Shown here in pieces: positions 10,453 through 53,506 of a DNA stretch of 64,000 nt (positions are counted from its first letter, which is position 1; each line of letters begins with the position of its first letter). The translations under genes and the position numbers were made by a program. Origin of the DNA: Calditrichota bacterium (GTDB lineage Bacteria > Zhuqueibacterota > Zhuqueibacteria > Zhuqueibacterales > Geothermadaptataceae); NCBI GenBank assembly GCA_008501765.1, contig QQUE01000018.1, positions 62,001 to 126,000 on the forward strand, written 5' to 3'. The notes under the pieces are model-generated. The model did no database searches and was not told the origin of the DNA. It saw only the letters and a program-made list of their open reading frames with translations.

Positions 10453-10462
10453 TATAGCCCCG

Positions 10463-11743: not shown

Positions 11744-11757
11744 ATTTTCTCCACATA

Positions 11758-12741
11758 TTATGGTTGATAGCGAATGACTTCTGTCGCTCTTTTAACAATG
11801 TGAGCCGTATGAATCATATAATGGTGTTCCGCGCTTGGCAGTGGAAATATTGTATCGGCTCCGGTCAATCGTGTTGGTGGGGCTTCCAGGTATTCAAAAG
11901 CGTCTTTTGAAACCATTGCAATGATTTCCGCAGCAACACCAAAGGACCGCGGCCCCTCGTGCACAACCAGCAAACGGCCGGTTTTTTTGACGGATTCGAG
12001 AATAGTCGATTTGTCGTAGGGATAAATCGTGCGCAAATCGATGAGCTCAACTGAAATACCTTCTTTTTGCAATAGCGCAGTGGCTTCCTTTGCTTCTTTC
12101 ATCTGCGAACCGTAAGAAATCAAGGTCAATTGCGTGCCCGGCTGCACGATCGCTGCTTTGCCGATTGGAATTGTGTAGGCATCTTCGGGGACTTCTTGTT
12201 TAAAGGCGCGATACAATCGTTTTGGCTCCATAAAAATGACCGGATCCTCATCGCGAATGGCGGAAATCAGAAGCCCTTTGGTATCATAAGGCGTCGATGG
12301 AATAACAACTTTGATTCCCGGAATATGGCCAAACAACGCTTCCATACTTTCAGAATGCAGCTCCAGCGCCCGGATGCCTCCGCTGTAGGGCATGCGAATT
12401 ACCATCGGCGCGGTGAGAGCGCCGCGGGTGCGGTTCCGCATTCGTGAAACGTGGGTAATTATTTGATTAAATGCCGGATAAACAAAACCACTAAACTGGA
12501 TTTCCACAACCGGCCGGAGCCCGCCCATGGCCATTCCCAGAGCCGTACCGACGATGGCATTTTCAGCAAGAGGGGAGTCAAAACAGCGTTTTTCGCCATA
12601 TTTTTTTTGCAGATTGACCGTGGCACGGAAAACGCCACCTTCAACACCGACATCCTCGCCAAAAGTGACAATGTTTTTATCGTTCTGCATTTCCGTCATC
12701 AGGGCATCGTTGACGGCTGAAATTATTGTGAGTGCTTGCAT
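11758..12741 (-). CDS. 2-oxoacid dehydrogenase E1 component, beta subunit
   Basis: The 327-residue protein matches transketolase-like E1 beta subunits over its whole length: FGEDVGVEGGVFRAT near the start, ENAIVGTALGMAMGG, and the C-terminal half LISYGSQ...IDLRTIYPYD. With E1 alpha it forms the heterotetramer that decarboxylates the 2-oxoacid using thiamine diphosphate. Its ATG overlaps the E1 alpha stop codon by one base (TAATG), and a GGAGG ribosome site lies within the end of E1 alpha, pointing to translational coupling and equal subunit supply. Confidence 0.94.
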   Translation of the reverse strand: MQALTIISAVNDALMTEMQNDKNIVTFGEDVGVEGGVFRATVNLQKKYGEKRCFDSPLAENAIVGTALGMAMGGLRPVVEIQFSGFVYPAFNQIITHVSRMRNRTRGALTAPMVIRMPYSGGIRALELHSESMEALFGHIPGIKVVIPSTPYDTKGLLISAIRDEDPVIFMEPKRLYRAFKQEVPEDAYTIPIGKAAIVQPGTQLTLISYGSQMKEAKEATALLQKEGISVELIDLRTIYPYDKSTILESVKKTGRLLVVHEGPRSFGVAAEIIAMVSKDAFEYLEAPPTRLTGADTIFPLPSAEHHYMIHTAHIVKRATEVIRYQP

Positions 12742-18528: not shown

Positions 18529-20475
18529 TTATTTAGGGGCGCTTTTATTAATGCCCGGTAAATCCTGACTTGGGGATTGCAAGAAATGAGCGCTTATTTC
18601 GAGAAAATCATGCTCGGTTACCAACCCAACCAGCAAGTTATTGTTGAGCACCGGGACACAGGACATATCGTTTTCCCGCATCAGGGTAACAGCTTCCAGT
18701 GTCGTCGTTTCCGGCGCCACGGCCCGCACATTTTTAACCATGATTGTTTTGACGGGTTTGTTGAGGAAACTGCGTCCTTCTTTTAGCTTGTCGAGCAAAC
18801 GAAAAACAGTGCGGAAACTCAGCATTCCAACCAGTTCGTGATTATTATTCTCAACCGGCACGTGATGAATGTTGCGCCATTCCATCAAATTGACGACGAG
18901 TTCGATACTGTCGTCTTCATTCACCGTAAAGAGATCGGTCACCATATATTGTTCAACCCGGTCAAAATACAATCGCCAGTCTTTTGTGTAAGACATTTTT
19001 GCCGGTTTCCAGGTATGCACCGGGTGGTTTTCTTTTTGATTTTTAGCGATTTCAAGGGTGATGACACTCAGGCACTTGTCGATATTTTCGCTTTCTTTGA
19101 GTTTCGTAAATGAATTGAGCATCCAGTCGGCACCTGTTTGATTGTGTTCAACCCGATCTTTAATCACACCGAGATAACGGGAAATATCGTTTTTCGCAAT
19201 ATCTACCGACTCAAGCCCGGATTGCGCCAAGGGGAGAAGCTCGTCAAGGATGAGGTTTTTCGCCGGAATTTTTTTGCCTTTAAACCAGGTAAACTGAGCT
19301 CCCAAACCTTCTCTGGCCGCCACGATGAGATTGCCTTTGGCATCGTCAAAACTGAGATTGGCAGGAATATCGGTATACGTTGCCGCCATTCCTTTGATCA
19401 ATCCCAACCAGAATGCTGCATTGGCAACTTCATCCACCGGGGTTGGGCCGGAAGGAAAAATCCGGTTTTCAATACGGTAGTGGGGCTTCCCATCGGTGAT
19501 TCCATAGCAAGGCCGGTTCCAACGGTAAACCGTGCTGTTATGGGTTTGCAAAGCTTTTAATTTGGGGATGCCACCATTTTTTAAAACTTCAAATGCATCT
19601 TCGTGATCGTCGATGCCAATCATCACACGGAATCGAGTGATGTCTTCCTTAAATAATTCGAGAGCCGATTCTTTGACCCAATCGGTACCAAAGCTGACGC
19701 GCGCCATGCCATGGCGCTGGTAGAGTGGATGCGAACGCGTATCAATGGATTGTTGAAATAAGGCAATTCGAGTTTCCTGCCATAATCGCTTGCCAAGAAA
19801 GATGGGTGAATTGGCGGCTGTGGAAATCATTGGCCCGGTGACCACCTGGGCTATGTTATAAAAATGGGCAAAGTCTTCCGGAGATACCTGAAAATGGACT
19901 TGAAAACTGGTATTTGCGGCTTCGAGCATTACATTGTCATGTTTGATGTATAGCTCATCGATTCCTTGCACATTGGATTCGAAATACTGTGAACCTCGCA
20001 GGCGGGAAATCGCCTCATTAAGTGCCATGTAGCGCGGCCGGGGCGTTAAATTTTCGAGAGTTAAGTCAGATTTTAAAAGGGTCGGCAAAATCCCGATGAG
20101 AATGACGTCTGCATCAAATTTCGCGGCGGCAGCGGCGGCTTGTTTTGTTAGCAACAACATCTGTTTTTCCAAAACCCGCAGGCTCCGGCCACGAAATGGC
20201 AGGGGATCGAGGTTGAATTCGAGGTTAAATACGCCGAGTTCCGTGGTGAACCGGTGATCGTTCAGGTTGTCGAGAATATCGAGGTTAAAGGGAGCCGGGC
20301 GCCCGAGTTTATCGATAATAACAAGTTCCTGCTCTGCGCCGATTCGCGATACACCGGATTCAAACATTCCTTTTTTCTGCATATATTCCAGCGCACGAAC
20401 ATCCTGAAGCAGATTGTTTTCAAATAGACGCAACTGACGTGGCCGCAATTCTGTAGATACACCTTGACGTCCCAT
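18529..20475 (-). CDS. GCS2-like glutamate-cysteine ligase domain fused to two CBS domains
   Basis: The 648-residue protein has an N-terminal region typical of the carboxylate-amine ligase/GCS2 family: RIGAEQELVIID (Glu48, Glu50 as expected metal or substrate ligands), TELGVFNLEFNLDPLPF, ANTSFQVHFQV and ENRIFPSGPTPVDE. The C-terminal 139 residues form a CBS pair (CBS1 about 510-560 with VTDLFTVNEDDSIELVV, CBS2 about 572-633 with VSCVPV-like MSCVPVLNNNLLVGLV). GCS2 members ligate an amino acid to glutamate or related carboxylates with ATP. CBS pairs bind adenosyl ligands (AMP, ATP, SAM), so the enzyme may sense energy state. The fusion is uncommon. AGGAAAAG precedes the ATG. The product could be gamma-glutamylcysteine, but that is not shown. 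Confidence 0.85.
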   Translation of the reverse strand: MGRQGVSTELRPRQLRLFENNLLQDVRALEYMQKKGMFESGVSRIGAEQELVIIDKLGRPAPFNLDILDNLNDHRFTTELGVFNLEFNLDPLPFRGRSLRVLEKQMLLLTKQAAAAAAKFDADVILIGILPTLLKSDLTLENLTPRPRYMALNEAISRLRGSQYFESNVQGIDELYIKHDNVMLEAANTSFQVHFQVSPEDFAHFYNIAQVVTGPMISTAANSPIFLGKRLWQETRIALFQQSIDTRSHPLYQRHGMARVSFGTDWVKESALELFKEDITRFRVMIGIDDHEDAFEVLKNGGIPKLKALQTHNSTVYRWNRPCYGITDGKPHYRIENRIFPSGPTPVDEVANAAFWLGLIKGMAATYTDIPANLSFDDAKGNLIVAAREGLGAQFTWFKGKKIPAKNLILDELLPLAQSGLESVDIAKNDISRYLGVIKDRVEHNQTGADWMLNSFTKLKESENIDKCLSVITLEIAKNQKENHPVHTWKPAKMSYTKDWRLYFDRVEQYMVTDLFTVNEDDSIELVVNLMEWRNIHHVPVENNNHELVGMLSFRTVFRLLDKLKEGRSFLNKPVKTIMVKNVRAVAPETTTLEAVTLMRENDMSCVPVLNNNLLVGLVTEHDFLEISAHFLQSPSQDLPGINKSAPK

Positions 20476-32676: not shown

Positions 32677-33336
32677 TTATACCAGTTTTTCTGTGAGCGC
32701 TTTGGCAACGGCTTCGGATTTCGAGTTCACTTCCAGTTTTTTATAGATATTTTTGATATGAAAATGCACGGTCCCTTCACTGACGAATAAAGCCGCAGCA
32801 ATCATTTTATAGGTTTTTCCCTCGCATAAATTGGCGAGAACTTGTTTTTCACGGTCGGTGAGTGAGACTTTGGGTGAGACGTGAAATGAGTTGACAACCA
32901 TGCGTGCAATTTTTGAACTCATCGGTGCGCCGCCGCGATAACAATCGTGGATTGATTCAAGGATTTCCCCGGAGGGCGTATCTTTCACCAGATAACCGGA
33001 AGCGCCGGCGCAAAGGGCATCGAAAACAAGGTCGCGGTCTTCGTGAATTGTCAGAATTAAAAAGTCAATTTCCGGATTCTCCGAGCGTATTTTGCGCATG
33101 CCATCGATGCCATTCATGCCCGGGAGAGTGATGTCGAGCAGGACGATGTCGGGTGGATTTTCCAATGTTCCTTTTATGGCTGTTTCAGCGTTCGAATATG
33201 AGCTGATGCATTTGAGTCCGGGTGTGCCGTTAATTAAAATCGCTAAACTTTCCCGAATAATAGCGTCATCTTCAACGATCGAAATCTCAATCGTGCCGGC
33301 GACTGACGTGGCCGCATTGTGCTTGTTTTTTGCCAA
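32677..33336 (-). CDS. NarL/FixJ-family response regulator (LuxR HTH)
   Basis: The 219-residue protein has a receiver (acidic pair Glu22-Asp23-Asp24, phospho-acceptor Asp68 in IVLLDITLPGMNG) and a LuxR helix-turn-helix at about 155-215 (LTDREKQVLANLCEG, VSEGTVHFHIKNIYKKL). The frame contains no upstream ATG before a stop, so a TTG at 33336 appears to be the start. It lies 593 bases downstream of the propeller sensor, whose DesK-like histidine domain is the usual partner of this regulator class. Repeats C2 and C3 flank it as a cassette. Confidence 0.9.
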   Translation of the reverse strand: MAKNKHNAATSVAGTIEISIVEDDAIIRESLAILINGTPGLKCISSYSNAETAIKGTLENPPDIVLLDITLPGMNGIDGMRKIRSENPEIDFLILTIHEDRDLVFDALCAGASGYLVKDTPSGEILESIHDCYRGGAPMSSKIARMVVNSFHVSPKVSLTDREKQVLANLCEGKTYKMIAAALFVSEGTVHFHIKNIYKKLEVNSKSEAVAKALTEKLV

Positions 33337-33929: not shown

Positions 33930-36900
33930 TCAACTTGCCACATTGTTTTTATCAGGAATGGCGCCGGCGAGTACAATTCGCATTCCATCAGCAGTCAGAC
34001 TTGCATCCAGTTTTGCGGTAATTTTATCAGCACGCTTTTGCATCATAACTTGCAAATTATTGAAAAACTCGTCCTGTGCTTCCGTGGGCCGGCCATCCGT
34101 TTCAATCTCAATTTTATAGTTAAAGCCAGTTAAATAGATGCGAAAAGTTACATTTTCGCAGGTAACATATTTTTGCAAACCACTGATAGCTTCTTTGAAA
34201 ATATAGGTAAATTGGCGCCGCCACTGCATTGGCAACCGCACAGTTTTCATCTTTTCCTCGAGCCCATCAACCCAGAAACCAATATTTTTTTTATTAAAAA
34301 AGTGATCCCCATAATCTTTCATATAAAAAGCGAAATCGAAAAAGGAATCAACGTCTGGATCCAGTGTCCAAATAAAATTTCGCATTCCGCTGGACAGGTT
34401 GCGGGAGATTTCTGCCATCGTATCGAGATAGGGTGATACCTGCTCGGGATTTTTTAATATCCCCCTTTTAATGAGTTCGATATAAAGTGTAATCCCGGAG
34501 AGTTTGTGCCCAAATTCATCATGAAAATCTTCAGCAACCTGTTTGCGTACACGCTCGTTTTCGGCGTGGCGGATGCGCTCCAGGTCAATTTGGCGGCGAA
34601 CTTTTTGCCGTACACGCCGGTTGTGCGAAATCACCACGGCTCCGACGATCGATAGAATTGTCACAAAATAAAACCAGTTTTTTTTATAAAATGGGGGCGT
34701 AACGATCAGTGCAGTTGAAGTTGCTGATTCATTCCAGATTCCATCGCTATTGCTGCCCTGCACCATAAAAGTGTACTCTCCAGGATCAAGGTTGGTGAAA
34801 CTGGCAAAACGGCGATTTGAATTAACACGCAACCATTCTTTATCGAAGCCTTCGAGTTTATATTTGTACTTGTTGGCAGGGGGATTTGTATAATCCAGCG
34901 CTGAAAAATGAAAGGTAAAAAAATTATCATTGTGGGACAGCTTTATATTTTTCGGATCAAACGGAACTGGTTTATTATAAATTGTAAATGCTGTTAAAAC
35001 AACAGGTGGGATATGCTCGTTATTGAGAATATTTTTGGGATGAAATTCATCGAACCCGTTAATGCCGCCAAAAAACATGGTACCGTCGCTGATTTTTAGC
35101 GCCGCGCCACCGCTGTATTCCCGGCCTTGCAAACCATGACTGACACCGTAGGCCATGAATTTGTTTTTCGATCGGTAATATTTGTAAATTCCGTTATTTG
35201 TACTCAACCACAGGTTCTTGTCACTGTCTTCGAGAATACCGTAAACTGTTTTGTCGGTTAAACCTTCTTTTTCGCCAAATATTTTGAATTGACGGTCGCC
35301 GCGTTCAAATTTATTCAGACCTCCGCCGTCGGTGCCAACCCACAACAATCCATCTGAATCCAGCAGGATTGCAAGTACGCGATTATCAGAAAGGCTGTTC
35401 GGATTTGATGCCTCATTGTGGTAACGGTTGATTTCTCCGGTTTTCAAGTTCAGCGAGGCCAGACCTCCACCGTAAGTACCAATCCATAATAGGCCGGCAT
35501 TGTTATAACTCAGGGTATAAACGAGGTCATCGGGAATGGAGTTCTCATCTTCGGGATTAAACCTGAATTGGGTGAAGGCATCGCTGGCGCGGTCGTATTT
35601 ATTCAGGCCACCACCAAATGTGCAAACCCAGAGCGTGCTGTCCGGTGTTTCGTAAAGTGATCTTATCTGGTTTTGGCTCAAACTGTGGCTGTCATCCGGA
35701 TTATTGCGGTAGGTTTGGAACTGAATTTCCAGGGGTGTGTTCATCAAAGATTTGTGGGATTTTACACCTTTTTTCGCTGCTTTTCCCGGCTGCCGGTTAA
35801 TTGGCACGCGCGAACGGTTCAGGCCTTCGCTGAAAGTTCCGACCCACAAATATCCATAGGAATCGCACAATATTGAGCGAATGTGATTTTGTGATAGGCA
35901 ATATTTATCATCGGGATTGTGAGTGAAATGCTCGTATTTTCCGGTATGACGATCAAAGCGGTTTAATCCTCCTTCAAATGTGCCAACCCAAACATGGCGG
36001 CCGTTGGATAATTTATCCTCCCCAAAAGCATAAATAATATTGTCGTTGAGTGAAGTTGGATCATCCACATTCGTTTTGCGGTGGATGAATTTTTTTAGAT
36101 TGGGAACAAATTTATTTATTCCCTGCCCGAGTAAAGTGCCAATCCATAAAACGCCGCCATCGTCTTCATGCAGCGCGGTGATATTGTTATCGCTTATAGA
36201 AAAAGGATCGTTCGGGTCATTTTGATAGGAGATAAATTTTCCTGATTGCGGCTCAAAACGATTTAGACCTCCACCGAAAGTCCCGATCCACAGGGCCTGG
36301 TTTTGCCCTTCGCAGATGGAAAGAATATTGTCATTACTCAGGCTGAATTTATCGGTGCTTTCATGCCGGTAATGCTGAAAATGAATCGGCTGGTATGCAT
36401 AGGTTGACTCACCACGCGTGCTCTTGATTATTCGATTGAGTCCGCCCAAAAAGGTTCCAACCCAAATATTGTTTTGCGAATCCTGAAACAAGGTCGATAC
36501 CCGGTCATCACTTAAACTTCTCCGGTTTTTTGGCGTGTGCCGGAAGTGGGAAAACCGGACATTATTTTTATTCGATGAAGGGTATGATTTAAATTCCTTA
36601 AAAATATCAACTTTGGTGTCATAGCGATTCAAACCACCGCCAAATGTTCCCACCCACATAAAATTATTGTTATCGCAAATCAAGCTGGAAACACGGTTTG
36701 AACTCAGGGCGTTGGGTTCGTCTTTTCTATACTGCACATAAACAAATTCTTCCTTCTTTTTGTTAAATATAGCAATGCCGGAACCCCAGGTTGCCAGCCA
36801 TAAATTTCCAGGGGCATCCTCGGCAATGGCTGTAATTGTATTTCTTGAGTAAAAGGCAAAGGTTGCGGGGTATTCGGTTGGAACAACCGCCTCATCTTGC

Positions 36901-37337
36901 GTGAAGAGTTCAGGTGGATCGATTATAAAATTTGTAAAGCTGTGTGATTTTCTGTTATAGCGAGCTAAAACACCAATTGAGGTTCCAAACCATAAGTTTT
37001 CGTCGGCGTCTTCGAAAATGGCATGTGTCCTGGGATCGCCGATCGAGGTTGTATCGTTGTGCTCTTTTTTGTGGATGAGAAAATCGTAGCCATCGAACCG
37101 GTTGGTTCCGTGTGCGGTAGCAAACCACATGAATCCCTGGCTATCCTGGTGAATATCGTGAATGGTTGAAACCGATAAACCCTGCTGCAACGAAATTTGT
37201 TGAAATTGTGCCTGCGTTGAATTTGAGGTGGTGCCGGCGGCTAATTTTACGGAGAGATTGGGCAGCACGGTTATGATTGCAATTGATATGAAAAAAGGTG
37301 TTTTGCGATTCGTCAACTTTTTCAACATTGGCAGCAT
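33930..37337 (-). CDS. Reg_prop double-propeller sensor with DesK-type histidine domain and degenerate ATPase
   Basis: The 1135-residue protein has an N-terminal signal/anchor and then about 14 propeller units of the type LWVGTFGGGLNRYD, enough for two seven-bladed propellers (about 45-770). A Y_Y_Y domain follows (YKLEGFDKEWLRV), then one span near 880-900 and a HisKA_3 domain with His939 in EDFHDEFGHKLSG. The last 140 residues align with a HATPase domain, but the N box reads FKEAISGLQKY (usual Asn and His replaced) and the DxGxG box is replaced by IETDGRPTEA near 1079. Propellers of this class sense glycans in Bacteroidetes. Kinase activity is doubtful here; it may work as a phosphatase, or with a partner kinase. 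No strong ribosome site is seen. Confidence 0.88.
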   Translation of the reverse strand: MLPMLKKLTNRKTPFFISIAIITVLPNLSVKLAAGTTSNSTQAQFQQISLQQGLSVSTIHDIHQDSQGFMWFATAHGTNRFDGYDFLIHKKEHNDTTSIGDPRTHAIFEDADENLWFGTSIGVLARYNRKSHSFTNFIIDPPELFTQDEAVVPTEYPATFAFYSRNTITAIAEDAPGNLWLATWGSGIAIFNKKKEEFVYVQYRKDEPNALSSNRVSSLICDNNNFMWVGTFGGGLNRYDTKVDIFKEFKSYPSSNKNNVRFSHFRHTPKNRRSLSDDRVSTLFQDSQNNIWVGTFLGGLNRIIKSTRGESTYAYQPIHFQHYRHESTDKFSLSNDNILSICEGQNQALWIGTFGGGLNRFEPQSGKFISYQNDPNDPFSISDNNITALHEDDGGVLWIGTLLGQGINKFVPNLKKFIHRKTNVDDPTSLNDNIIYAFGEDKLSNGRHVWVGTFEGGLNRFDRHTGKYEHFTHNPDDKYCLSQNHIRSILCDSYGYLWVGTFSEGLNRSRVPINRQPGKAAKKGVKSHKSLMNTPLEIQFQTYRNNPDDSHSLSQNQIRSLYETPDSTLWVCTFGGGLNKYDRASDAFTQFRFNPEDENSIPDDLVYTLSYNNAGLLWIGTYGGGLASLNLKTGEINRYHNEASNPNSLSDNRVLAILLDSDGLLWVGTDGGGLNKFERGDRQFKIFGEKEGLTDKTVYGILEDSDKNLWLSTNNGIYKYYRSKNKFMAYGVSHGLQGREYSGGAALKISDGTMFFGGINGFDEFHPKNILNNEHIPPVVLTAFTIYNKPVPFDPKNIKLSHNDNFFTFHFSALDYTNPPANKYKYKLEGFDKEWLRVNSNRRFASFTNLDPGEYTFMVQGSNSDGIWNESATSTALIVTPPFYKKNWFYFVTILSIVGAVVISHNRRVRQKVRRQIDLERIRHAENERVRKQVAEDFHDEFGHKLSGITLYIELIKRGILKNPEQVSPYLDTMAEISRNLSSGMRNFIWTLDPDVDSFFDFAFYMKDYGDHFFNKKNIGFWVDGLEEKMKTVRLPMQWRRQFTYIFKEAISGLQKYVTCENVTFRIYLTGFNYKIEIETDGRPTEAQDEFFNNLQVMMQKRADKITAKLDASLTADGMRIVLAGAIPDKNNVAS

Positions 37338-43941: not shown

Positions 43942-44787
43942 TTAAAAATGAATCACGAAACCTAATTTATTTTTGGCTAAATAAGGTGTGAATGTGCTTG
44001 CAGAAACCTGCGACCTGTTTCGATTCACCAATTTTTTCGCCACCCAATGTCCCAATGCCCCCCCGATAATTACATCAGAAAGCCAGTGTTTTCTATCATC
44101 CATACGCTGAAGCGCAACCGAGGCTGCGAGCGCGTAAGCCGGATACTTTATATATTTCTGCGGATATTGTTGGGCCAGCACTGTCATGGCGGCAAATGCG
44201 CTGGATGTATGACCCGAGGGCATGGAATAGAATCGTTCCTTATCGGCTTTGGAATAAAACGATTTATAAAAACGGGCCCCTTTATCATTGTAAGGCCGCG
44301 CCCGGCCAATCGAAATCTTCCCCAATCGCGTCAAGAGTGCGGTTATCAGGTAGGACTCCGTCAGTAGAAATGAAGTTTGCAGCATTTTTTTATCCCGCAG
44401 AAAAATCCCTCCGGTAGCAAACATTCCAATCAGCGCCGTTGAAAAGACTTGTGGCCCCATTCTGTCGTAAAATTGCCCCGGGGGCAGCAAGTGTTTTGTG
44501 TGCCGAATATAAAAATCGTCGCCTTCCAAAGTAAAATCTTTATCTATCTGCTCGTCGGTGCCGAAAACAAGTCCTGCATTCACAGCGGCAAATGCTGTAA
44601 AAAGCAGCGCGTCTTTTTTCGACATTTTAAATGGTGCTGTGCCGATATCAGCAAAGTCGGAAAAAATCGTTTTGCCGATATTTTTTACTGAATTCTCATC
44701 ACTTTGCCCGGAAATAGACTGCGCATTCATCGCAGTAAAAAATAATAAAATCAGGCACAGGGAAATAATGATTGTCCGGATTTTCAT
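43942..44787 (-). CDS. PAP2-family phosphatase (membrane lipid phosphatase-like)
   Basis: The ATG at 44787 gives 281 residues with a signal sequence (IIISLCLILLFFTAMNAQ); the longer frame to 44832 adds an unlikely polar leader. The three PAP2 motifs are present: K157...R164-P165 (KISIGRARP), PSGH at 190-193 with catalytic His193, and R228...His234...Asp238 (RMDDRKHWLSD). The family removes phosphate from lipid phosphates or undecaprenyl diphosphate on the periplasmic side. It is the last gene of a five-gene minus-strand run that also holds a second PAP2 protein. Confidence 0.9.
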   Translation of the reverse strand: MKIRTIIISLCLILLFFTAMNAQSISGQSDENSVKNIGKTIFSDFADIGTAPFKMSKKDALLFTAFAAVNAGLVFGTDEQIDKDFTLEGDDFYIRHTKHLLPPGQFYDRMGPQVFSTALIGMFATGGIFLRDKKMLQTSFLLTESYLITALLTRLGKISIGRARPYNDKGARFYKSFYSKADKERFYSMPSGHTSSAFAAMTVLAQQYPQKYIKYPAYALAASVALQRMDDRKHWLSDVIIGGALGHWVAKKLVNRNRSQVSASTFTPYLAKNKLGFVIHF

Positions 44788-44828
44788 TTGGTGTGTTTCC
44801 TTATTTTCATTTGAGCTGATGCCTGAAC

Positions 44829-45569
44829 TCAATTTTTTGTCGTTTGAAGGATTGAGGTTTTCTTTTTAATAATTCGCACAACAAGATAAACGGCAACACT
44901 CACTCCAAAAAAGAATAACCAGCCCTGTCGCAGATACAAGCTATTATTTACCAGGCTGTCTTTGATTGCTTTTAATAAAGTTAAGGTCAGGGCAATTGCC
45001 CCGAACGTCGTATATTCCTGGCGGATAGCCTTTTTTAGCGCAAATTTTATTTCACTTTTCTTCCATTTCGATAACTTGGGAAAGATGGCCGGTGTATTTG
45101 TTGCCCAAAGTAAATAGGGGTAATTGAATTTTTTTCTCAAAAAGGCCTCCTCGGCAAACATAATTCTTTCATAGTACAACCAAAAGCAGACGACGCCGAT
45201 GATCAAAAGCCACACAACTTGTAGAAATAACAGACATGCAAAAAAGATAATAAAATTGCCGAGATAAAGCGGATGCCTGCCGATCGAATAAATACCGGTC
45301 GTATTGAGTGAGGTGGCGACTTGATTTCGCGTATTTCTGCCTGAGGTACCTTGTGCAGCCTGCCCGACGGTGATGATTCGAACAGCTAATCCCGTCGTTG
45401 CCAGGAATAGAGAAAGCAATTCGGTCATCTGCATGAGAATTGGACTTTTGAGCTGACTAATATCCCTGGCGGCCAATAAAATGAATCCGACAAATAGAAG
45501 CGGCATATAACTTCTATAAGTGAAAAGGAATTTGCCTGAGTTTTCAAATTGATCTTTTAACGTCATCAT
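44829..45569 (-). CDS. Isoprenylcysteine carboxyl methyltransferase (ICMT/PEMT)-like membrane protein
   Basis: The 246-residue protein has about six membrane segments and the family motif SIGRHPLYLGNF (residues about 97-108). It continues with the SAM-site region YYERIMFAEEAFLRKKFNYPYLLW, where the paired Glu residues are conserved. Such enzymes methylate phospholipids, isoprenoid carboxyls or other lipids in the membrane using SAM. It starts three bases after one PAP2 gene and ends 41 bases before another. That order suggests linked processing of a lipid or polyprenyl carrier; the substrate is unknown. Confidence 0.83.
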   Translation of the reverse strand: MMTLKDQFENSGKFLFTYRSYMPLLFVGFILLAARDISQLKSPILMQMTELLSLFLATTGLAVRIITVGQAAQGTSGRNTRNQVATSLNTTGIYSIGRHPLYLGNFIIFFACLLFLQVVWLLIIGVVCFWLYYERIMFAEEAFLRKKFNYPYLLWATNTPAIFPKLSKWKKSEIKFALKKAIRQEYTTFGAIALTLTLLKAIKDSLVNNSLYLRQGWLFFFGVSVAVYLVVRIIKKKTSILQTTKN

Positions 45570-45572
45570 TAT

Positions 45573-46238
45573 TTACCAGTTTAACTTCAGGTTTAGCCCC
45601 AGATTTTTATCCAAATAAACTGGACTTATTTTCGCTTTTTCATGCAATTGCAGGGCTCCCCAGTGTGGCAGCAGCAATCCGAGACCGGCACCGCGGAAAA
45701 CATCGCCGTTGTGATGTTTTTTGCTTTTGATACGACTCCAGCCAACGAAACCAGCAGCGAGAAATGCCGGGATACCAAATTTTTGACCATAGCGTTTCAT
45801 CAAAAATGTCGCCCCGAAAGTTGCTGCCGACGTATGGCCCGAAATAAAAGAGTAGGAATCGCTGCCATCCGGGCGAATGACAGGGATGCCTATTTTGCCG
45901 ACGTATGTGAGAAAAATAGTTGAGGCGAAAGTTTGCAAAAATTGGGCTCGACCATCGCTGTCATCGAAAACAAAGGTCGCGCCGAATGCGGCCACTGGCA
46001 GGGCGATTTGCAGGTAATCTCCGGTTTTGGCACTAGTTTTCCCGGTCTGGGCAAGCGTTGGCTGCACGTGCGTTGTAAGAAAAAATGCCAAAATGCACTT
46101 GAGATAAAATGTGCTTCCGCATTTGAATACTTTCACGTTGTTCTGTTGGTTTGTTTTTTTAGAATCCACTGGTGGAATTTTCCTTTCAGTTGTATTTTTT
46201 CTATCGAGCGCATAACCGGTTAAACCGGGGTGCATCAC
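45573..46238 (-). CDS. Divergent PAP2-family phosphatase
   Basis: The frame is 221 residues from GTG 46238 (next codon ATG). The PAP2 motifs are complete though the protein is short: Lys115...Arg122-Pro123, SGHT with His135, and Arg169...His175...Asp179 (SRIKSKKHHNGD). A hydrophobic signal-like segment occurs only at residues 47-64, so the true start is probably one of the internal GTG codons (near Val24 or Val35). The GTG at Val24 has AAGGA 11 bases before it. A strong hairpin lies right upstream of the annotated start. It ends in a beta-strand-like tail (GLNLKLNW) that resembles an outer-membrane signature. Confidence 0.8.
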   Translation of the reverse strand: MMHPGLTGYALDRKNTTERKIPPVDSKKTNQQNNVKVFKCGSTFYLKCILAFFLTTHVQPTLAQTGKTSAKTGDYLQIALPVAAFGATFVFDDSDGRAQFLQTFASTIFLTYVGKIGIPVIRPDGSDSYSFISGHTSAATFGATFLMKRYGQKFGIPAFLAAGFVGWSRIKSKKHHNGDVFRGAGLGLLLPHWGALQLHEKAKISPVYLDKNLGLNLKLNW

Positions 46239-46245
46239 TCCCGGG

Positions 46246-46277
46246 ATCTCACCCTGCCGGGTAGAGGCAGGGGAGAT
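46246..46277. repeat. GC-rich hairpin upstream of the PAP2 gene
   Basis: ATCTCACCCTGCC pairs with GGCAGGGGAGAT with one bulge and a seven-base loop, between the beta-barrel gene stop (46314) and the PAP2 start. It may be a REP-like element or an intercistronic hairpin. No U-tract follows on the minus strand. Confidence 0.45.
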
Positions 46278-46313
46278 TCCAGGGGGAGAGGAGAGTGATG
46301 ATTTTTTCTATAT

Positions 46314-47201
46314 TCAGAGCCTGAAAAGCAATCCAAACTCCGGGGCGTAATCCGTCGCTTTTGAACTGACTCCAAAAGCATTATTGATTCGCAAAAACAT
46401 TTTTGAGGTTAGTTTAAATTGTAGGTCCGTGATTAAATCAACTTCAGTTTGCAGCCCTTCAACACCGAGATAGAGCTGAAAGTTGTCTGATATTCGCTTG
46501 AGATATTCGACCGCATACTCACTCAAATCCGTCTTTTTTTCGCCGGCATCATATTCCACCGCTGCGCGAAAAATCATTGTTCCCCAGGCAAAACCTTTGA
46601 TCAGTCCTTGTCCCAGTTTGAACTCCCAATTCTGAGTCCCAATCAATTTTTTATCCTGTTGCAAAGGGAAAACGGTTTCGTAATAACTAAAAATTTCTGG
46701 TCGTTTGGCGGTTTCTCGCGACCAGCGCCAGCGAATCTGTCCTTCGACGTCGCCTAAACCGGATTCGCGGATTTGCTCGGGCATGTCCGAATCATCTCTT
46801 TTTGATTTATATTGCGTTGCCGAGATAGCAGCCATCTCAAATTCAACAGCAAGGCGGTCTGTAATTCCCCAGGCGAAAAACAGCAGAGCTTCGTTGGCGC
46901 GGTATCTTGCACTAAAATCTTTTGTACCTGAATAGCCAAATTCACTGGGGGTGTATTCCGCATCCTGATCGTAGTAATATTCGTAAAATGGATAAAAAAT
47001 GAATTCTCCTTTTTGGATGAAATTGCCGAAAATGGACGTTGGCAGACCCTGACCACGATCTTGCAGGAAGAACGGTCTTTTATCCTGTGAATAAATGCAA
47101 CTGGTCGTAAGCAGGAAAAAACTAATTATCCGAATGATTGTTCTTGTGAATTTTCCGCAGCCTTTTCCTGTCGTTGTTTTGGATTGGTTCATATTATTCA
47201 T
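46314..47201 (-). CDS. Exported beta-barrel-type protein of unknown function
   Basis: The 295-residue protein has a late signal sequence (TIIRIISFFLLTTSCIYSQ, about 20-38) after a polar leader. The mature part has alternating strands: GEFIFYPFYEYYYD, RYRANEALLFFAWGITDRLAVEFEM and GDVEGQIRWRWS. It ends with FGLLFRL, whose aromatic/hydrophobic close suits an outer-membrane barrel. It resembles transporter-like proteins of the phenol meta-pathway type only in general style. Its ATG overlaps the PepSY lipoprotein gene by eight bases (GGATGAATAA), so the two are translationally coupled. Confidence 0.78.
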   Translation of the reverse strand: MNNMNQSKTTTGKGCGKFTRTIIRIISFFLLTTSCIYSQDKRPFFLQDRGQGLPTSIFGNFIQKGEFIFYPFYEYYYDQDAEYTPSEFGYSGTKDFSARYRANEALLFFAWGITDRLAVEFEMAAISATQYKSKRDDSDMPEQIRESGLGDVEGQIRWRWSRETAKRPEIFSYYETVFPLQQDKKLIGTQNWEFKLGQGLIKGFAWGTMIFRAAVEYDAGEKKTDLSEYAVEYLKRISDNFQLYLGVEGLQTEVDLITDLQFKLTSKMFLRINNAFGVSSKATDYAPEFGLLFRL

Positions 47202-47691
47202 CCGGATCGATTTTCTCTTTTTTAATCACCGATCCTGCAGGAGAAAGCTTAATTTCCCAGTGCTGGCTTTGATTTTTATCCAACCCTTTTACCTCGAAAA
47301 AGTGTTTTTCATTTTCATCCACTTTCTCTGCGGTGTTAATTTTAAATCCCGGAATTTCATTTTCTAAAGCCTTTTTGATGTTCTCCGGAAGTTGAGATGG
47401 ATCAACCATTTCTTCAATTGCGTAGACGGTGCCATCGGGTTGATAGACTGCATCGATTTTCCGACCTTCAAATTCAAATGAAATTTCATAATATTTATGG
47501 TTGTCCTTAATTTCTTCAGCGTATTCAAACACAATGGCTGTGGGATAGGTTTTGTTGAAAACATATAAAACCACTTTTGGCATATCTTTTTCGTTGATCA
47601 CACGTTCCTGATCGGCAGGATTGCAGGCGAGAAAAATAAAGGCCAACAAAATCGAGCAGAACACGGATAAATTAACCGGTTTCATTTTCAT
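47194..47691 (-). CDS. PepSY-like lipoprotein
   Basis: The 165-residue protein has a lipoprotein signal (lipobox AFIFLAC; Cys23 from the first Met). Two PepSY-like units follow: KVVLYVFNKTYPTAIVFEYAEE...YYEISFEFEGRKIDAVYQPDG and NIKKALENEIPGFKINTAEK...HFFEVKG. Such small domains bind or inhibit periplasmic partners, and no enzyme activity is expected. The second ATG (47685) has better spacing to AAAGGA and may be the real start. It leads the run PepSY, barrel, PAP2, ICMT, PAP2. Confidence 0.82.
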   Translation of the reverse strand: MKMKPVNLSVFCSILLAFIFLACNPADQERVINEKDMPKVVLYVFNKTYPTAIVFEYAEEIKDNHKYYEISFEFEGRKIDAVYQPDGTVYAIEEMVDPSQLPENIKKALENEIPGFKINTAEKVDENEKHFFEVKGLDKNQSQHWEIKLSPAGSVIKKEKIDPDE

Positions 47692-48048: not shown

Positions 48049-49152
48049 TCAAAACTGAGCTGAGATTCCAGCTGCAATCGTATTCATTTGGTAGGTGAAC
48101 AAGCGCAGGTTTGTATCGTTGTCCTCATAAATATGTTGTAATTCGAAGGTGAATTTCGAACCCAATTTAACCTTAAAAGTATGGGATAAAAACAATAATT
48201 GGTCGTCTCTTTTAGGGCCGTCCGGCCGGATCGGCCAAAACTTGAATTCCTTATTGTAAATATTGTAGAACAACAACAACGAAAAACGAGGGGTAAGTTT
48301 CACCAATGAGGATAATGAAAACTGATTTTTAATGTAGCCAAAATCCGAGTCTTCAGCCAATAAATCATCATAGCTCTCATCGTTAATTCGTTGCCCTGTT
48401 TGTTCATTTTCGATTTCAGCCGGGAAATCATTTTCAAAACGATAGGCGAAAGTGGCAAATAAATTGCGGTTAAATATTTTGTCGAGCCGTGAAATAAATA
48501 TATACCGGTGCCCGTCAAGTTCGAGATTTAAATCAGCGGCCCTGCTGCCGGGATAGAGGTTGCCCTCGTGTTTGTTGTATTCCGTGTGCAGGCCGAGATT
48601 GGCTGATTTTGTCATCTGAATATTCAGCTTTGCGTAATAACGGCTACTTTTGTACTGTTGATAATCTGAGGCATCAAAATAATCTTTAGACCAGTTTTGG
48701 ATGCCAATATAAGCCCGGTTTTGTGGATTAATCGCGATGTTTAAATAGATATTGGCAATATTCCGAATATAGGAAAAATCCTCCGTCGATGAAAACCGTG
48801 CCCGCAGTTCATTGGAGACATGAAAGTGAATTTTCTCCGTCATGCTCTGCTGGAACTTTAGATTCCCCAAATGATCGTGGCGGCTGAATTTCTGGAACTC
48901 GTCATAACGATGATGCCTGAGCTCGTAAAACAAGTCCAACCGCGATTTTTTAAATAATTTTCTTTTGTTTTCGAGGCTGAAATAAAGATTGGTTCGATAA
49001 TCATCAATTTTTGTGGAATCACGCAATCGCAGAATATTGTTGCGGTATTCCTGCGATACTTTACCGAAAATCATGGTCGTCGACTTCTCCTGCGCAAAAC
49101 TACCAAGTGGGATGCAAATCAGGGCGATTAATTTAAATATTTTCCTGGTCAT
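48049..49152 (-). CDS. Predicted outer-membrane beta-barrel protein
   Basis: The ATG at 49152 has GCAGGA seven bases upstream; the frame could extend to 49167. The 367-residue product has a signal peptide ending GSFAQ. It then shows about 14-16 amphipathic strands such as TNLYFSLENKRKLFKK, RAYIGIQNWSKDYFD and KVKLGSKFTFELQHIYED. It closes with AAGISAQF, a terminal Phe as in BamA-inserted barrels. No family is recognised. It is the last gene of the operon kinase, sigma-54 activator, coiled-coil protein, barrel, and starts 18 bases after the coiled-coil gene stop. Confidence 0.8.
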   Translation of the reverse strand: MTRKIFKLIALICIPLGSFAQEKSTTMIFGKVSQEYRNNILRLRDSTKIDDYRTNLYFSLENKRKLFKKSRLDLFYELRHHRYDEFQKFSRHDHLGNLKFQQSMTEKIHFHVSNELRARFSSTEDFSYIRNIANIYLNIAINPQNRAYIGIQNWSKDYFDASDYQQYKSSRYYAKLNIQMTKSANLGLHTEYNKHEGNLYPGSRAADLNLELDGHRYIFISRLDKIFNRNLFATFAYRFENDFPAEIENEQTGQRINDESYDDLLAEDSDFGYIKNQFSLSSLVKLTPRFSLLLFYNIYNKEFKFWPIRPDGPKRDDQLLFLSHTFKVKLGSKFTFELQHIYEDNDTNLRLFTYQMNTIAAGISAQF

Positions 49153-49170
49153 CGATGTATCCTGCAATTA

Positions 49171-50064
49171 TTAATAATTTTCGAGTTTTTTCTTCCACGC
49201 TTGCGTAAAACGGCTGATCTTCTCATATAAATTGACAGAATTGAGCTTGTTCTCCGAAATCTGGCTTTTAATAATTTGAATTTCCCGCGCAAAGTTTTCT
49301 GACTGATCTTTCAGCTCTTCTAAGCGGTCGCGGTCAAAAATACCCTGCTCATCTTCCAAAGTACGGCTGAGATCGAGATAAAATACCAGCATCTCATTCT
49401 GCATTTTCTTGTCTTTTTCCAGCTCCCGCAGCCGCTCCTCATCCTGTAAAATTACCCGTTCCAACCTGGCTGCTTTATCTTTTAACAGTGTCGTTTTCAT
49501 CATGATTCTTTGCGGGGAATCGTTCGCTTCAATGGTGATATTTTGCCATTCACTGACATTAATTTTAATTGAATTTAACCGGCTGAAATAGCCCGACTTT
49601 TCCTTGCTCAGTCTTTGACTTGAATTTAGTGCGGCCTGATTTGGTGTTTTTGAATTGCTGGAACTCAAAAGACTTCGAATTTCAGTATCGAGAGTGGCTA
49701 TCATTTGTTTGTATAATTCCTGCAGATTGACCTTTATTTGGTTCACCCGTGCATCAAGAATTGAAATTTTATCTGCCAGCTCCCGCGATTTTTTCAAAGC
49801 GGCATTTAGCCTGAATTCCAACAGTGGTTGGCGCTGTTTTCCCAGTTCAATTTTGTATTCATTTATCTGCCCGTTAACTTCGCTAAATTTCAGCATCTGC
49901 GTCGAGCGAACCTGCTGCACAGAATCCAGAGACGCCTGCTGTCGCACAATTGCGATGCGCAAGCTATCCAGCGATTTGTTGACCGGATTGCCAAAAACGC
50001 ATTGCGCAAGCACAAACCAGGCGGAAAATGCAAAGAGGAGTTTCAGTTTATTCTGGAATTTCAT
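49171..50064 (-). CDS. Exported coiled-coil protein
   Basis: The 297-residue protein has a signal peptide (LLFAFSAWFVLAQCVFG). Almost all of the rest is heptad-rich helix, for example LDSLRIAIVRQQASLDSVQQ and LERVILQDEERLRELEKD. It has no enzymatic motif. Its ATG overlaps the stop of the sigma-54 activator by four bases (ATGA). Long periplasmic coiled coils next to a barrel protein can form envelope-spanning or adaptor structures. That is an idea from layout only. Confidence 0.8.
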   Translation of the reverse strand: MKFQNKLKLLFAFSAWFVLAQCVFGNPVNKSLDSLRIAIVRQQASLDSVQQVRSTQMLKFSEVNGQINEYKIELGKQRQPLLEFRLNAALKKSRELADKISILDARVNQIKVNLQELYKQMIATLDTEIRSLLSSSNSKTPNQAALNSSQRLSKEKSGYFSRLNSIKINVSEWQNITIEANDSPQRIMMKTTLLKDKAARLERVILQDEERLRELEKDKKMQNEMLVFYLDLSRTLEDEQGIFDRDRLEELKDQSENFAREIQIIKSQISENKLNSVNLYEKISRFTQAWKKKLENY

Positions 50065-51446
50065 TCAAATTTATACCTTAAAAAATCATATTTTTCCATT
50101 TTATAACGGAGGGTGGTTCTTTTAATATTGAGTTTTTCAGCAGCTTTTGAAATGTTTCCTTTGGTTTCCAGTAAGGCTTTAAAAATAAGTTTTTTCTCGT
50201 GTTCTTCCATGTTTTTGGTGAAATTTTCTTCGGTATGTTCTCCATCACCAATTTCGTCTTTCAGCCTGAAAATATGCTCCGGCAGGTCGTCGGTATCAAT
50301 TAAATTGTGTTGTGTTAAAACGATCGCCCGCTCGATGACATTTTCCAGTTCCCTGATATTGCCTGGCCAGGAATAATTCAGCAAACATTTGGTTACTTGC
50401 GGGGCGATGCCGTCAATTTTTTTTCCGGTTTCGCTGACGTATTTTTTGATAAAATGATCAATCAAATAGGGGATGTCCCCGGTGCGTTCCCGCAAAGGCG
50501 GTAAGTGAATACTGACAACATTCAGACGATAATAAAGGTCCTCGCGAAAGGCCTTTTTCTGAATTTGATCTGCGAGATCGAGATTCGTCGCTGTGATGAT
50601 GCGGGCTTTCATTTGCAGGTTTTCGGTTCCGCCGACTCGTTCAAATTCTTTCTCCTGCAGAACACGCAGAAGTTTCACCTGCAGCGCCGGAGCGATTTCA
50701 CCGATCTCATCTAAAAAAATTGTGCCGGATGCGGCGATTTCAAAACGTCCCGGTTTGCGTTTTATGGCGTTGGTGAAGGCGCCTTTCTCATGACCGAAAA
50801 GCTCACTTTCGAGCAGGTTTTCCGCCAATGCGGCGCAATTGACTTTGATGAACGGTTTTTCTTTTCGTGGACTGTTATTGTGAATTGCACGGGCGATCAA
50901 TTCTTTTCCAGTGCCACTTTCGCCAAGAATCAGGACCGGGGAAATGGCATCGGCCACCCGTTTAACCAGGCTGTATACTTCCTGCATCACCGGACTTTGA
51001 CCGACGATTTCGGAAAAATGTTGATGCACTTCTTCACGCAGGTATCTATTTTCAAGCTGCAATTCCTGATTATTTAAAGTTAATGTGCGCTGATTCAGCG
51101 CTTTTTCAAGTTTAACTTCGAGTTCATCCATCGAAACGGGTTTGGTCAAATAATCCAGCGCACCCCATTTCATCGCATCGACGGCATTTTGCACGGTGCC
51201 AAAAGCAGTCATAACGATCACCGGAACGTGGGCGTCAATTTCCCGCACTTGTTTGAGCAAATCAAGACCGGATTTTTTTGGCAATTTCATGTCGGTGATG
51301 ATGACGTCTATTGCAGAATTTTTAAACAATTTAAACGCATCTTCCGCATTGGCAGCAATAAGGGGCTGATGTTTTTGTCCGGCAACGATTTGTGCGACGG
51401 CATCTGTTGTGCTTTGGAGATCGTCGACAATGAGAATTTTAGCCAT
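50061..51446 (-). CDS. NtrC-family sigma-54-dependent response regulator with GAFTNA loop
   Basis: The 461-residue protein has a receiver (phospho-acceptor Asp52 in IITDMKLPKKSG), an AAA+ domain with Walker A GESGTGKE (from Gly175), Walker B TIFLDEIGE, and the sigma-54 contact loop at 222-227. That loop reads GAFTNA rather than the usual GAFTGA. A Fis-type helix-turn-helix ends the protein (NISKAAEKLNIKRTTLRYKM). It should activate sigma-54 promoters when phosphorylated by the kinase whose gene ends three bases upstream. It overlaps the next gene by four bases. Confidence 0.93.
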   Translation of the reverse strand: MAKILIVDDLQSTTDAVAQIVAGQKHQPLIAANAEDAFKLFKNSAIDVIITDMKLPKKSGLDLLKQVREIDAHVPVIVMTAFGTVQNAVDAMKWGALDYLTKPVSMDELEVKLEKALNQRTLTLNNQELQLENRYLREEVHQHFSEIVGQSPVMQEVYSLVKRVADAISPVLILGESGTGKELIARAIHNNSPRKEKPFIKVNCAALAENLLESELFGHEKGAFTNAIKRKPGRFEIAASGTIFLDEIGEIAPALQVKLLRVLQEKEFERVGGTENLQMKARIITATNLDLADQIQKKAFREDLYYRLNVVSIHLPPLRERTGDIPYLIDHFIKKYVSETGKKIDGIAPQVTKCLLNYSWPGNIRELENVIERAIVLTQHNLIDTDDLPEHIFRLKDEIGDGEHTEENFTKNMEEHEKKLIFKALLETKGNISKAAEKLNIKRTTLRYKMEKYDFLRYKFE

Positions 51447-51449
51447 ATT

Positions 51450-53321
51450 TTAAGCGTGCTCCATTGGCAATTTCACGGTTATTCGTGTACCTTTATTAAT
51501 TCTACTCTCAACAAAAATGGTGCCGTGATGGGCTTCAATGATATTTTTGACAATTGATAATCCAAGGCCGGTTCCCTGACTGCGCGTGGAAAAAAACGGA
51601 TTGAAGATTTTTTCACGATGCGAGGCAGCAATGCCACTACCGGTGTCAGTAATTTCGATTCCGAGTACCTTTTCATTTGTAAATTCGAGGGCGGACAATG
51701 TAAGTTTGCCATTGTCATTCATCGCTTGAATAGCGTTGAGAATAATATTGAGCATGGCCTGTTTCAATTGGCCGAAATCAGCAGATAAAGCGAGTTTGTC
51801 CTTGCCCAGGTTCATTCTCACTGCAATATTTTTTTCCTTGAGTGCCCCGGTCGCCAGAAAGAGTGCTTCCTGCAAAATATCACTAATCAGGACACGGCGT
51901 AATTCTAATTCCGGCTGTCGGGCGAATTTTAAAAAATTGGTAACGATAGCGTTGAGTGATTTAATTTCACTCTGAATTTTATCGATATTCTCATCTGGTG
52001 TGCTGTCCTCTTTTAATTGTCTTTTTAGAAGGCCCATGTAAAGTTCGATAGAATTCAGCGGGTTGCGGATTTCATGGGCAACGGCTGCCGAGAGCTCACC
52101 AAGATAGGCGAGACGCTCCTTCTCAATAATTTGGTTTTGCAGGTTTTTCACCACTGTCAGATCTGTCAAAACGATATTATAGCCAATCTTTTCATCATTT
52201 GCCGTGAGCAAATGTGAAAATTGAATGCCGACCGTTTTTGATGAATCCCGGAAATGAAGCTGATTTTCCATGTAAGAAAGGGCTTCTTTTTTTTCCAGAA
52301 GTCGTGATAATATCTTATTAAACGGGTGCAGTTCAGTGATGATATCTTGCCACTTTTTCCCTGTTTTATTAGCGTGATTTAAATTGAGAATTTTCTCGGT
52401 TTCGGGGTTGAAAACCGTAATCCTGCCTTGCAAATCGATGGTTAAAATACCGTTGGTAATACTCTGCAAAATATAATCGTTATACGATTGAATCGAGTCG
52501 GCCTTGGCTTCGGCAACGAAGCGCAGTTCCTGCAATTTTTCCTGCTGCGTCCGGATATTTTCCTGCATCGAATTAAATACAATTCCCAGGTAGCCAATTT
52601 CATCCCGGCTCTTGATTTTTACAGCCCGGCTTAAATCACCCTGACTCATTTTTTCCGAGGCAGCCACCAGCTTTGTAATTGGGTTCACAATGGATTTTGC
52701 CAGAAAAAAGCTGATGAAAATTGCAAAAAACAGGCTGATTGTATTTATAAAAAGAATGGAGTTTTTAATGTTATCGAGCACCTGCAAAAATTCCGGACTG
52801 GCGTCAACACAACAAATTGCGCTGACAATCCCATCTCTGGTTTTAAGCGGCGCAAAGGCTGATTTATAATATATGCCGTCACTGCCGCGGTAAAGCACCG
52901 AAAACCGGGATTGGCCATTTAAAGTCGCGTTCAATTCCAAAATGTGGCTCTGTAAATAAAGTACCGGAGCGGATATTGACGTTTGCCCTTGAGAATCGAC
53001 AATCATTTTAAATTCGGAATCGATGATGTAGCTGCGTTTCAGGTTGAAATCGTGCTGCAGGTTTTGCAGATTTTTTTGCACGGCGCCGTAGAATTCTCCG
53101 GCTTCATCACCGGGCTGCAAATAATCCAGTAAATCAGGCTCGATGGAGCCAGCGGCAAATTGCGCAATGCTGATGAGTTTTTTGCCCAATTCCTCATCCA
53201 GATAATGATTGGCGCTAAAGTAGAGGAACCAGCCCACCGAGTTGATGATTAAAACGACGAGTAAAACGATATAAATTGTTATTTTATATTGAAGCCGGTT
53301 TTTCGGGCGCAGATTCTCCAT
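51450..53321 (-). CDS. Membrane sensor histidine kinase (Cache-like, HAMP, PAS, HisKA)
   Basis: The ATG at 53321 is chosen; the longer frame begins with TTG at 53372. The 623-residue kinase has a span near 13-35, a periplasmic sensor of about 150 residues (SIEPDLLDYLQPGD...YIIDSEFKMIVDSQGQ, Cache-like), a second span near 190-210 and HAMP (SIVNPITKLVAASEKMSQG). PAS follows (GILTIDLQGRITVFNPETEK), then the dimerisation domain with His416 in AAVAHEIRNPLN. The HATPase domain is complete (NIILNAIQAMND, DTGSGIA, GTGLGLSIV). It is the NtrB/AtoS type that feeds NtrC-class regulators, and it heads the four-gene operon. Confidence 0.92.
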   Translation of the reverse strand: MENLRPKNRLQYKITIYIVLLVVLIINSVGWFLYFSANHYLDEELGKKLISIAQFAAGSIEPDLLDYLQPGDEAGEFYGAVQKNLQNLQHDFNLKRSYIIDSEFKMIVDSQGQTSISAPVLYLQSHILELNATLNGQSRFSVLYRGSDGIYYKSAFAPLKTRDGIVSAICCVDASPEFLQVLDNIKNSILFINTISLFFAIFISFFLAKSIVNPITKLVAASEKMSQGDLSRAVKIKSRDEIGYLGIVFNSMQENIRTQQEKLQELRFVAEAKADSIQSYNDYILQSITNGILTIDLQGRITVFNPETEKILNLNHANKTGKKWQDIITELHPFNKILSRLLEKKEALSYMENQLHFRDSSKTVGIQFSHLLTANDEKIGYNIVLTDLTVVKNLQNQIIEKERLAYLGELSAAVAHEIRNPLNSIELYMGLLKRQLKEDSTPDENIDKIQSEIKSLNAIVTNFLKFARQPELELRRVLISDILQEALFLATGALKEKNIAVRMNLGKDKLALSADFGQLKQAMLNIILNAIQAMNDNGKLTLSALEFTNEKVLGIEITDTGSGIAASHREKIFNPFFSTRSQGTGLGLSIVKNIIEAHHGTIFVESRINKGTRITVKLPMEHA

Positions 53322-53506
53322 GGTGTTCAATTTATGCAAATATCGTACTTTCGCAAGAATAATTACTGGCAAATGTGAATAAATATCAGCATATTTTTTT
53401 TGAAAACAATGAGATTAACGCGATAGAATGAACTCGAAATACGCCGTAAATTTAGCAAACGACGAGCCCGGAAATCAACGATCAAAAGTGCATTGAATAA
53501 TATTAA

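Follow-up and report, generated by a model that had tools for sequence, protein, structure and literature searches.

A putative lipid-phosphate remodelling cluster joining an LmtA-like methyltransferase and two PAP2 phosphatases in a Calditrichota bacterium

What might a methyltransferase of the ICMT type do between two PAP2 phosphatases? The question is raised by a stretch of 64,000 nucleotides from a Calditrichota bacterium (assembly GCA_008501765.1, contig QQUE01000018.1, positions 62,001 to 126,000), here called the window. Five co-directional open reading frames (ORFs) on its minus strand (43942-47691) encode, in this order, a PepSY-like lipoprotein, an outer-membrane β-barrel, the phosphatase PAP2-B, the methyltransferase and the phosphatase PAP2-A. 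A sequence-only reading had noted five same-strand genes, an 8-base overlap of the PepSY and barrel genes and a 3-base gap from PAP2-B to the methyltransferase, all of which agree with the ORF coordinates, and had proposed that a lipid phosphate is dephosphorylated and methylated. We give an even chance to the reading that the genes form a cluster which remodels lipid phosphates, most probably those of lipid A, and which adjoins an envelope locus under two-component regulation.

The methyltransferase, its likely substrate and the two phosphatases

The methyltransferase matched the Pfam families PEMT (E 1e-9) and ICMT (E 5e-6). Its best evidence of identity was the NCBIfam model of LmtA, the lipid A 1-phosphate methyltransferase of Leptospira (TIGR04571; 189 bits, E 1e-55), to which residues 2-242 of 246 aligned over positions 1-248 of 252, while the prenylcysteine carboxyl methyltransferase model (NF040696) gave 32.2 bits, below its cut-off of 160. 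Among 82 genomes of the phylum, seven scored 187-248 bits against the LmtA model, none reaching the curated cut-off of 325, and the next score was 88; because of this gap we regard them as a distinct LmtA-like family. At least 558 relatives were confirmed in named genomes, some of which may belong to other ICMT families, and the best 80 of these spanned Nitrospirota, Omnitrophota, Planctomycetota, Bacteroidota, Hydrogenedentota, Thermodesulfobacteriota and further groups. Rhodopirellula rubra CECT 8075 and Bythopirellula polymerisocia Pla144 are among the named carriers. In a sample of 388 genomes, LmtA matches at E 1e-35 or better were obtained for 23, the window's own genome counted. At one locus (L237, G218:C40) two LmtA paralogues (73320-74054 and 76658-77389) lie on the same strand around a large opposite-strand gene, by eye an oxidoreductase.

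In the LmtA tree (92 rows, bootstrap unsettled, built without any Leptospira sequence), the seven carriers of the phylum fell at five places, and the window protein clustered with two Pirellulaceae on long branches. Such a patchy distribution would fit either horizontal gain or many losses.

The window's own genome encodes LpxK (E 1e-86), the sole lipid A marker checked, and should therefore make lipid A. Three Nitrospirota loci that form one clade in the LmtA tree (L080, L103, L114) carry an MsbA gene directly before LmtA on the same strand; the best model for these neighbours was TIGR02203 (527-551 bits, below the cut-off of 602). Since the methyltransferase is LmtA-like, lipid A is the likely methyl acceptor, rather than the polyprenyl phosphate also considered in the sequence-only reading, of which the idea of joint dephosphorylation and methylation was supported. 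Within the phylum, LpxK was found in 69 of the 74 genomes outside family f7. That family, which belongs to the same class as the window genome, had no LpxK match in any of its eight sampled genomes (G019, G024, G028, G031, G034, G037, G040, G043); lipid A has possibly been lost there or the kinase replaced.

Both phosphatases passed the Pfam PAP2 cut-off (E 1e-18 and 1e-8). The full catalytic triads previously read in them were confirmed, as the KX6RP, PSGH and SRX5HX3D motifs of the lipid phosphatase (LPT) branch were found in membrane helices of each protein with minor variation. PAP2-A displayed KISIGRARP, PSGH and R-x5-H-x3-D with QR replacing SR, and PAP2-B displayed KIGIPVIRP, ISGH instead of PSGH, and SR-x5-H-x3-D. 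A structure model of PAP2-B (predicted local distance difference test, pLDDT, 74) comprised six helices and a C-terminal hairpin, and its nearest solved fold was LpxE of Aquifex (6ebu; Z 16.0, root-mean-square deviation 2.5, 134 aligned residues, 21% identity). LpxE was also its best NCBIfam model (PRK09597; 25.7 bits, E 8e-6, below the cut-off of 177), as it was for the orthologues from loci L092 and L143 (E 8e-9 and 1e-7, far below the cut-off). PAP2-A matched SepP (E 2e-7) and LpxF (NF045633; E 0.0016, 18.4 bits against a cut-off of 400), and its relatives at E 1e-15 or better occurred in 25 of the 82 phylum genomes.

Conservation of the neighbourhood

A conserved neighbourhood, envisaged for the set in the sequence-only reading, was found for smaller pieces and not for the whole. 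The candidate of a conserved five-gene operon was rejected, with no second case in the 82 phylum genomes, the 388 sampled genomes or the 80 named loci; many of the latter lie on short contigs, with the LmtA ORF recognised in 75, so that a full set could there be cut off. The recurring pieces were barrel with PAP2-A, PAP2-A with PepSY, PAP2-B with LmtA, and PAP2 beside two-component genes.

The pairing of PAP2 with LmtA was counted in 101 loci, of which six without a recognised LmtA ORF (L100, L131, L141, L144, L149, L240) were dropped, leaving 95; L229, whose LmtA is identical to that of L074, was excluded from the counts. PAP2 adjoined LmtA in five of the 95 loci, with six genes in total (L092, L134 on both sides, L116, L137 and L150). 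In L092 (Marinimicrobia), PAP2-B is followed by LmtA after a gap of 67 bases. L137 and L150 were sisters in the LmtA tree and L092 and L134 stood apart, L116 being too short for inclusion. The PAP2 neighbour in L116 matched the lipid A phosphatase and LpxF models (E 1e-21 and 3e-10, below the cut-offs). In L134 (7618-10617), LmtA lies between a divergent PAP2 gene and a DedA/VTT-PAP2 fusion, the DedA part of which matched undecaprenyl phosphate transporter models below their cut-offs.

With a PAP2 profile trained without the LmtA loci, PAP2 accounted for five of 175 LmtA neighbours and five of 866 farther genes at a loose threshold (p 0.016), and for four of 175 and five of 866 at a stricter one (p 0.049). 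A Pfam search of 168 of the 175 neighbours found PAP2 in six, against at most one of the control genes (p 0.03-0.13); the control consisted of 140 of the 681 farther genes of at most 900 residues, and PAP2 was not among the 25 families listed for it, hence 0 or 1.

The remaining pairings concern the envelope genes. The barrel was found in eight of the 82 phylum genomes, its own included. G010, G011 and G013 have barrel and PAP2-A on the same strand and within 9 kb of each other; with the window counted, this makes four of the eight barrel genomes. As for the others, G002 and G014 are on short contigs, PAP2-A is located elsewhere in G009, and G054 has no PAP2-A match. PepSY directly follows PAP2-A in G012 and G028, and PAP2-B stands in tandem with a PAP2-A-like gene (24% identity) in L227. 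In G002, of the same genus, the genes for kinase, regulator, coil and second barrel are followed by the barrel and by a PAP2-B gene that the contig end cuts short; PepSY is missing.

Directly upstream of the five genes, a row of kinase, NtrC-type regulator, coiled-coil protein and second barrel (48049-53372) had gone unmentioned in the sequence-only reading. Among the genomes read, three (G002, G068, G042) keep this row. PAP2-A was located within three genes of same-strand two-component genes in four of the 13 PAP2-A loci read (L266, L271, L279, L280); in L279 and L280, a PAP2-A-like gene (only about 30% identity) directly precedes the kinase of the same kinase-NtrC-coil row. PAP2-B orthologues adjoin two-component genes in L143 and L226. 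These results fit an older envelope locus of two-component genes, PAP2-A, PepSY and barrel that here also holds PAP2-B and the LmtA-like methyltransferase.

Other features were observed at these loci. Genes resembling an RND efflux pump lie upstream of the kinase row in L279 and L280. In L143, LmtA (region 7613-12697) is placed between two opposite-strand pairs of two-component genes, and the PAP2-B orthologue (50% identity) lies 8.8 kb from LmtA, beside a third regulator (18555-19912).

Proposed pathway and rival explanations

Methylation had been placed at the outer leaflet. ICMT-type enzymes use cytosolic S-adenosylmethionine (SAM), and the reaction is therefore to be placed on the inner face of the inner membrane. 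Judging from its family, the LmtA-like enzyme would methylate Kdo2-lipid A at its 1-phosphate, with SAM from the cytoplasmic side, and MsbA would flip the methylated product. At the periplasmic face, PAP2-B and possibly PAP2-A would hydrolyse unmethylated phosphomonoesters; family membership points to a phosphate of lipid A (1- or 4'-position) as substrate and makes undecaprenyl diphosphate a probable further one.

A methyl phosphodiester is no substrate for a phosphomonoesterase. Methylation and removal would therefore be alternative fates of one phosphate, or the methyl group would spare the 1-phosphate while another phosphate is removed, which would give a Leptospira-like monophosphoryl, methylated lipid A. 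Capping or removal would either way lower the negative charge. A pairing of methyl capping with PAP2 trimming would be meaningful because the methylated phosphate is a diester left uncut, and this resistance is a possible, and testable, reason for keeping the methyltransferase beside phosphatases. A regulated 'methylate or remove' switch for the lipid A 1-phosphate, in which LmtA caps the phosphate and the LpxE-like PAP2 takes off what is uncapped, inducible through the two-component genes, and with it Leptospira-style methylated lipid A in many non-spirochaete phyla, is a possibility that we consider doubtful.

A number of observations weigh against a lipid A remodelling cluster, and several of them lend themselves to other explanations. 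PAP2-A occurred in five of the eight f7 genomes, all eight without LpxK, and the closest relative of PAP2-B in the phylum was that of G028, also of family f7, where it follows DgkA. The two phosphatases thus cannot need LpxK-made lipid A in every host. The NCBIfam scores of both were far below the cut-offs. The runner-up fold for PAP2-B was YodM (Z 14.8, 1.2 Z units below LpxE), so close behind that the fold alone cannot single out LpxE, and LpxE itself is reported to accept undecaprenyl diphosphate and phosphatidylglycerol phosphate as well (PMC6581854). As PAP2-A moreover fits SepP, an undecaprenyl diphosphatase, better than LpxF, the PAP2 proteins could be general stress-regulated lipid phosphatases for undecaprenyl diphosphate recycling or phosphatidylglycerol synthesis, with LmtA acting independently on lipid A and an adjacency that is loosely selected or accidental. 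The enrichment of PAP2 beside LmtA was indeed modest and only suggestive. Against general phosphatases stand the five other loci with PAP2 beside LmtA, four of them at three places in the tree and the window at a fourth, the L116 neighbour of lipid A phosphatase/LpxF type, and LpxE as the best model for PAP2-B and for both orthologues tested. We hold this explanation to be unlikely.

Alternatively, the methyltransferase could act on a different lipid: a polyprenyl phosphate, which the sequence-only reading had suggested, or else a phospholipid headgroup or prenylated product. Its Pfam domains, PEMT and ICMT, and its score below the curated LmtA cut-off (189 against 325 bits) would allow this. 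LpxK was present in 21 of the 23 LmtA genomes and in 277 of the 365 others, a difference that is not significant (p 0.12), and this co-occurrence was set aside as proof of the substrate since it is not decisive. The two LmtA genomes without an LpxK match were G307 (68% complete) and G125 (97% complete), the near-complete G125 being the one that counts against lipid A. However, the full-length LmtA match far exceeds that to prenylcysteine methyltransferase, a clear gap separates the family from other ICMT relatives, and the MsbA neighbours in one Nitrospirota clade and the LpxK genes of 21 LmtA genomes point the same way, which makes a different lipid improbable.

It might further be asked whether the genes belong together at all. 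An older locus of barrel, PepSY and PAP2-A could have gained PAP2-B and LmtA as a chance same-strand string with no joint pathway. The full five-gene set was seen in no other genome examined, and LmtA, patchy as it is at five tree places within the phylum, was detected in none of the order's 14 other genomes (two belong to the window's genus; four of the 14 are less than 85% complete). No PAP2 neighbour was found for LmtA in the six other carriers of the phylum (two on contigs shorter than 6 kb) or, by a motif test, at 16 further LmtA loci. G002 combines barrel and PAP2-B without PepSY, and G001 has PAP2-A without the others. The spacer between barrel and PAP2-B also contains a strong hairpin (-32.9 kcal/mol), at which the string may be divided into two separate transcripts. 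A chance string is nevertheless very improbable in view of the tight spacing (an 8-base overlap and gaps of 3 and 41 bases) and the repeated pairings of PAP2 with LmtA, PAP2-B with PAP2-A and PAP2-A with PepSY.

Surrounding features and known systems

The features of the putative lipid A remodelling cluster and of the row upstream are collected in Table 1. For PAP2-A, the ATG start, preceded by AAGGA and giving a signal-peptide-like N-terminus, is more likely than the TTG, and it leaves 41 bases behind the methyltransferase. PAP2-B may truly start at a GTG at 46169, which has AAAGGA upstream and would lengthen the spacer behind the barrel beyond 75 bases.

Table 1. Genes and other features of the cluster and of the upstream two-component row, in window coordinates
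Feature	Position	Strand	Basis or remark
PepSY-like lipoprotein	47194-47691	-	lipobox-like ...IFLAC (by eye)
Outer-membrane beta-barrel	46314-47201	-	about 12 strands (structure model)
Intergenic hairpin	46239-46313	-	long imperfect palindrome, single genomic copy, without U-run
PAP2-B, LpxE-like membrane PAP2 phosphatase	45573-46238	-	Pfam, motifs, fold
LmtA-family methyltransferase (ICMT in the sequence-only reading), predicted lipid A 1-phosphate methyltransferase	44829-45569	-	NCBIfam
PAP2-A phosphatase, signal-peptide-like start	43942-44787 from ATG (TTG ORF: to 44832)	-	complete PAP2 motifs
BAR2, second barrel-like protein of upstream row	48049-49167	-	barrel by eye; no Pfam family
COIL, coiled-coil-like protein of upstream row	49171-50064	-	no Pfam family above cut-off
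NtrC-type response regulator	50061-51446	-	receiver, sigma-54 activation domain, Fis-type helix-turn-helix
Sensor histidine kinase	51450-53372	-	HAMP, PAS, HisKA, HATPase

The hairpin, on which the sequence-only reading was silent, is a possible attenuator or processing site. A repeated mobile element was ruled out for this spacer, as it has one genomic copy. Given the NtrC-type regulator, a sigma-54 promoter was considered before the PepSY gene, but the window has seven matches to one against 11.4 expected, the nearest of them more than 5 kb from the genes. Sigma-70-like sites (21 against 14.5 expected, standard deviation 3.9) and terminator-like sites (nine against 7.0 expected, standard deviation 2.6) were little above chance.

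The PepSY gene begins 357 bases behind the upstream row. Its product matched PepSY_like (PF11396) with 23.8 bits (E 6e-5), under the cut-off of 28.3, which a relative in L266 clears with 43.6 bits. Relatives are found beside regulator/kinase pairs or immediately after PAP2-A, and the lipoprotein probably assists a sensor pathway from the periplasm. No PepSY relative was found at E 0.001 in the seven other barrel genomes, and the PepSY-barrel overlap is therefore seen in the window's own genome only.

The barrel had no Pfam match. Its model (pLDDT 66) showed about 12 strands, with FapF and the COG4313 channel as closest folds (template modelling, TM, score 0.5-0.6), and in G010 it is surrounded by an ABC-2 permease, a BOF protein and a cytochrome c. 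Nothing was found in these data that ties it to lipids or their export, the sequence-only reading having suggested a role as exit or receptor. The lipid A deacylases LpxR and PagL were not among the 50 fold matches listed, which excludes nothing and lends a deacylase no support. Farther off, the window encodes a 1135-residue two-component protein (33930-37337; Reg_prop, Y_Y_Y, HisKA_3), and a LuxR-type regulator (32677-33336) comes next on that strand.

How does this locus compare with known systems? The sequence-only reading knew of no described system with this set. That is true of the set as a whole; the methyltransferase and the phosphatases have described relatives in LmtA, LpxE and LpxF. 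PAP2-B resembles LpxE, the lipid A 1-phosphatase, in its KX6RP, SGH and SRX5HX3D motifs, its six helices and the 6ebu fold, and differs from it in identity (21%), score (26 against 177 bits), ISGH for PSGH and an extra C-terminal hairpin. PAP2-A shares the PAP2 motifs and weak matches with LpxF, the lipid A 4'-phosphatase, and with SepP, but falls far under both cut-offs, has a signal-peptide-like start and is present in genomes without LpxK. The barrel, with about 12 strands in its model, may be of the 12-strand COG4313/FapF channel type, its best matches, at 10-13% identity, TM 0.5-0.6 and a model pLDDT of 66.

A theme similar to that of the window is found in eptA/mcr loci, where an enzyme that alters lipid A phosphate is central and is accompanied by PAP2, dgkA, pepSY and two-component genes (PMC7559476, PMC12064563). 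In the window, a methyltransferase takes the place of the phosphoethanolamine transferase, and the regulatory genes are a kinase and an NtrC-type regulator; neither eptA nor dgkA is among the annotated neighbours at 40-53 kb.

The methyltransferase itself is comparable to LmtA of Leptospira. According to a 2023 source, Leptospira lipid A has a single phosphate, methylated, at the 1-position, a form described in no other species (PMC10248169), and a limited literature search returned no title on LmtA outside Leptospira. The window protein shares with LmtA the full-length model match and the C-terminal PEMT/ICMT domain; it differs in its position between two PAP2 genes and in its score of 189 against 325 bits, a comparison made through the model only. 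With LmtA relatives in many phyla, some of them adjoining MsbA or lipid A phosphatase-like PAP2 genes, a rare decoration of the outer-membrane lipid may extend beyond Leptospira. What is new here is a likely spread of LmtA chemistry beyond Leptospira and its pairing with PAP2 phosphatases, rather than a new kind of system.

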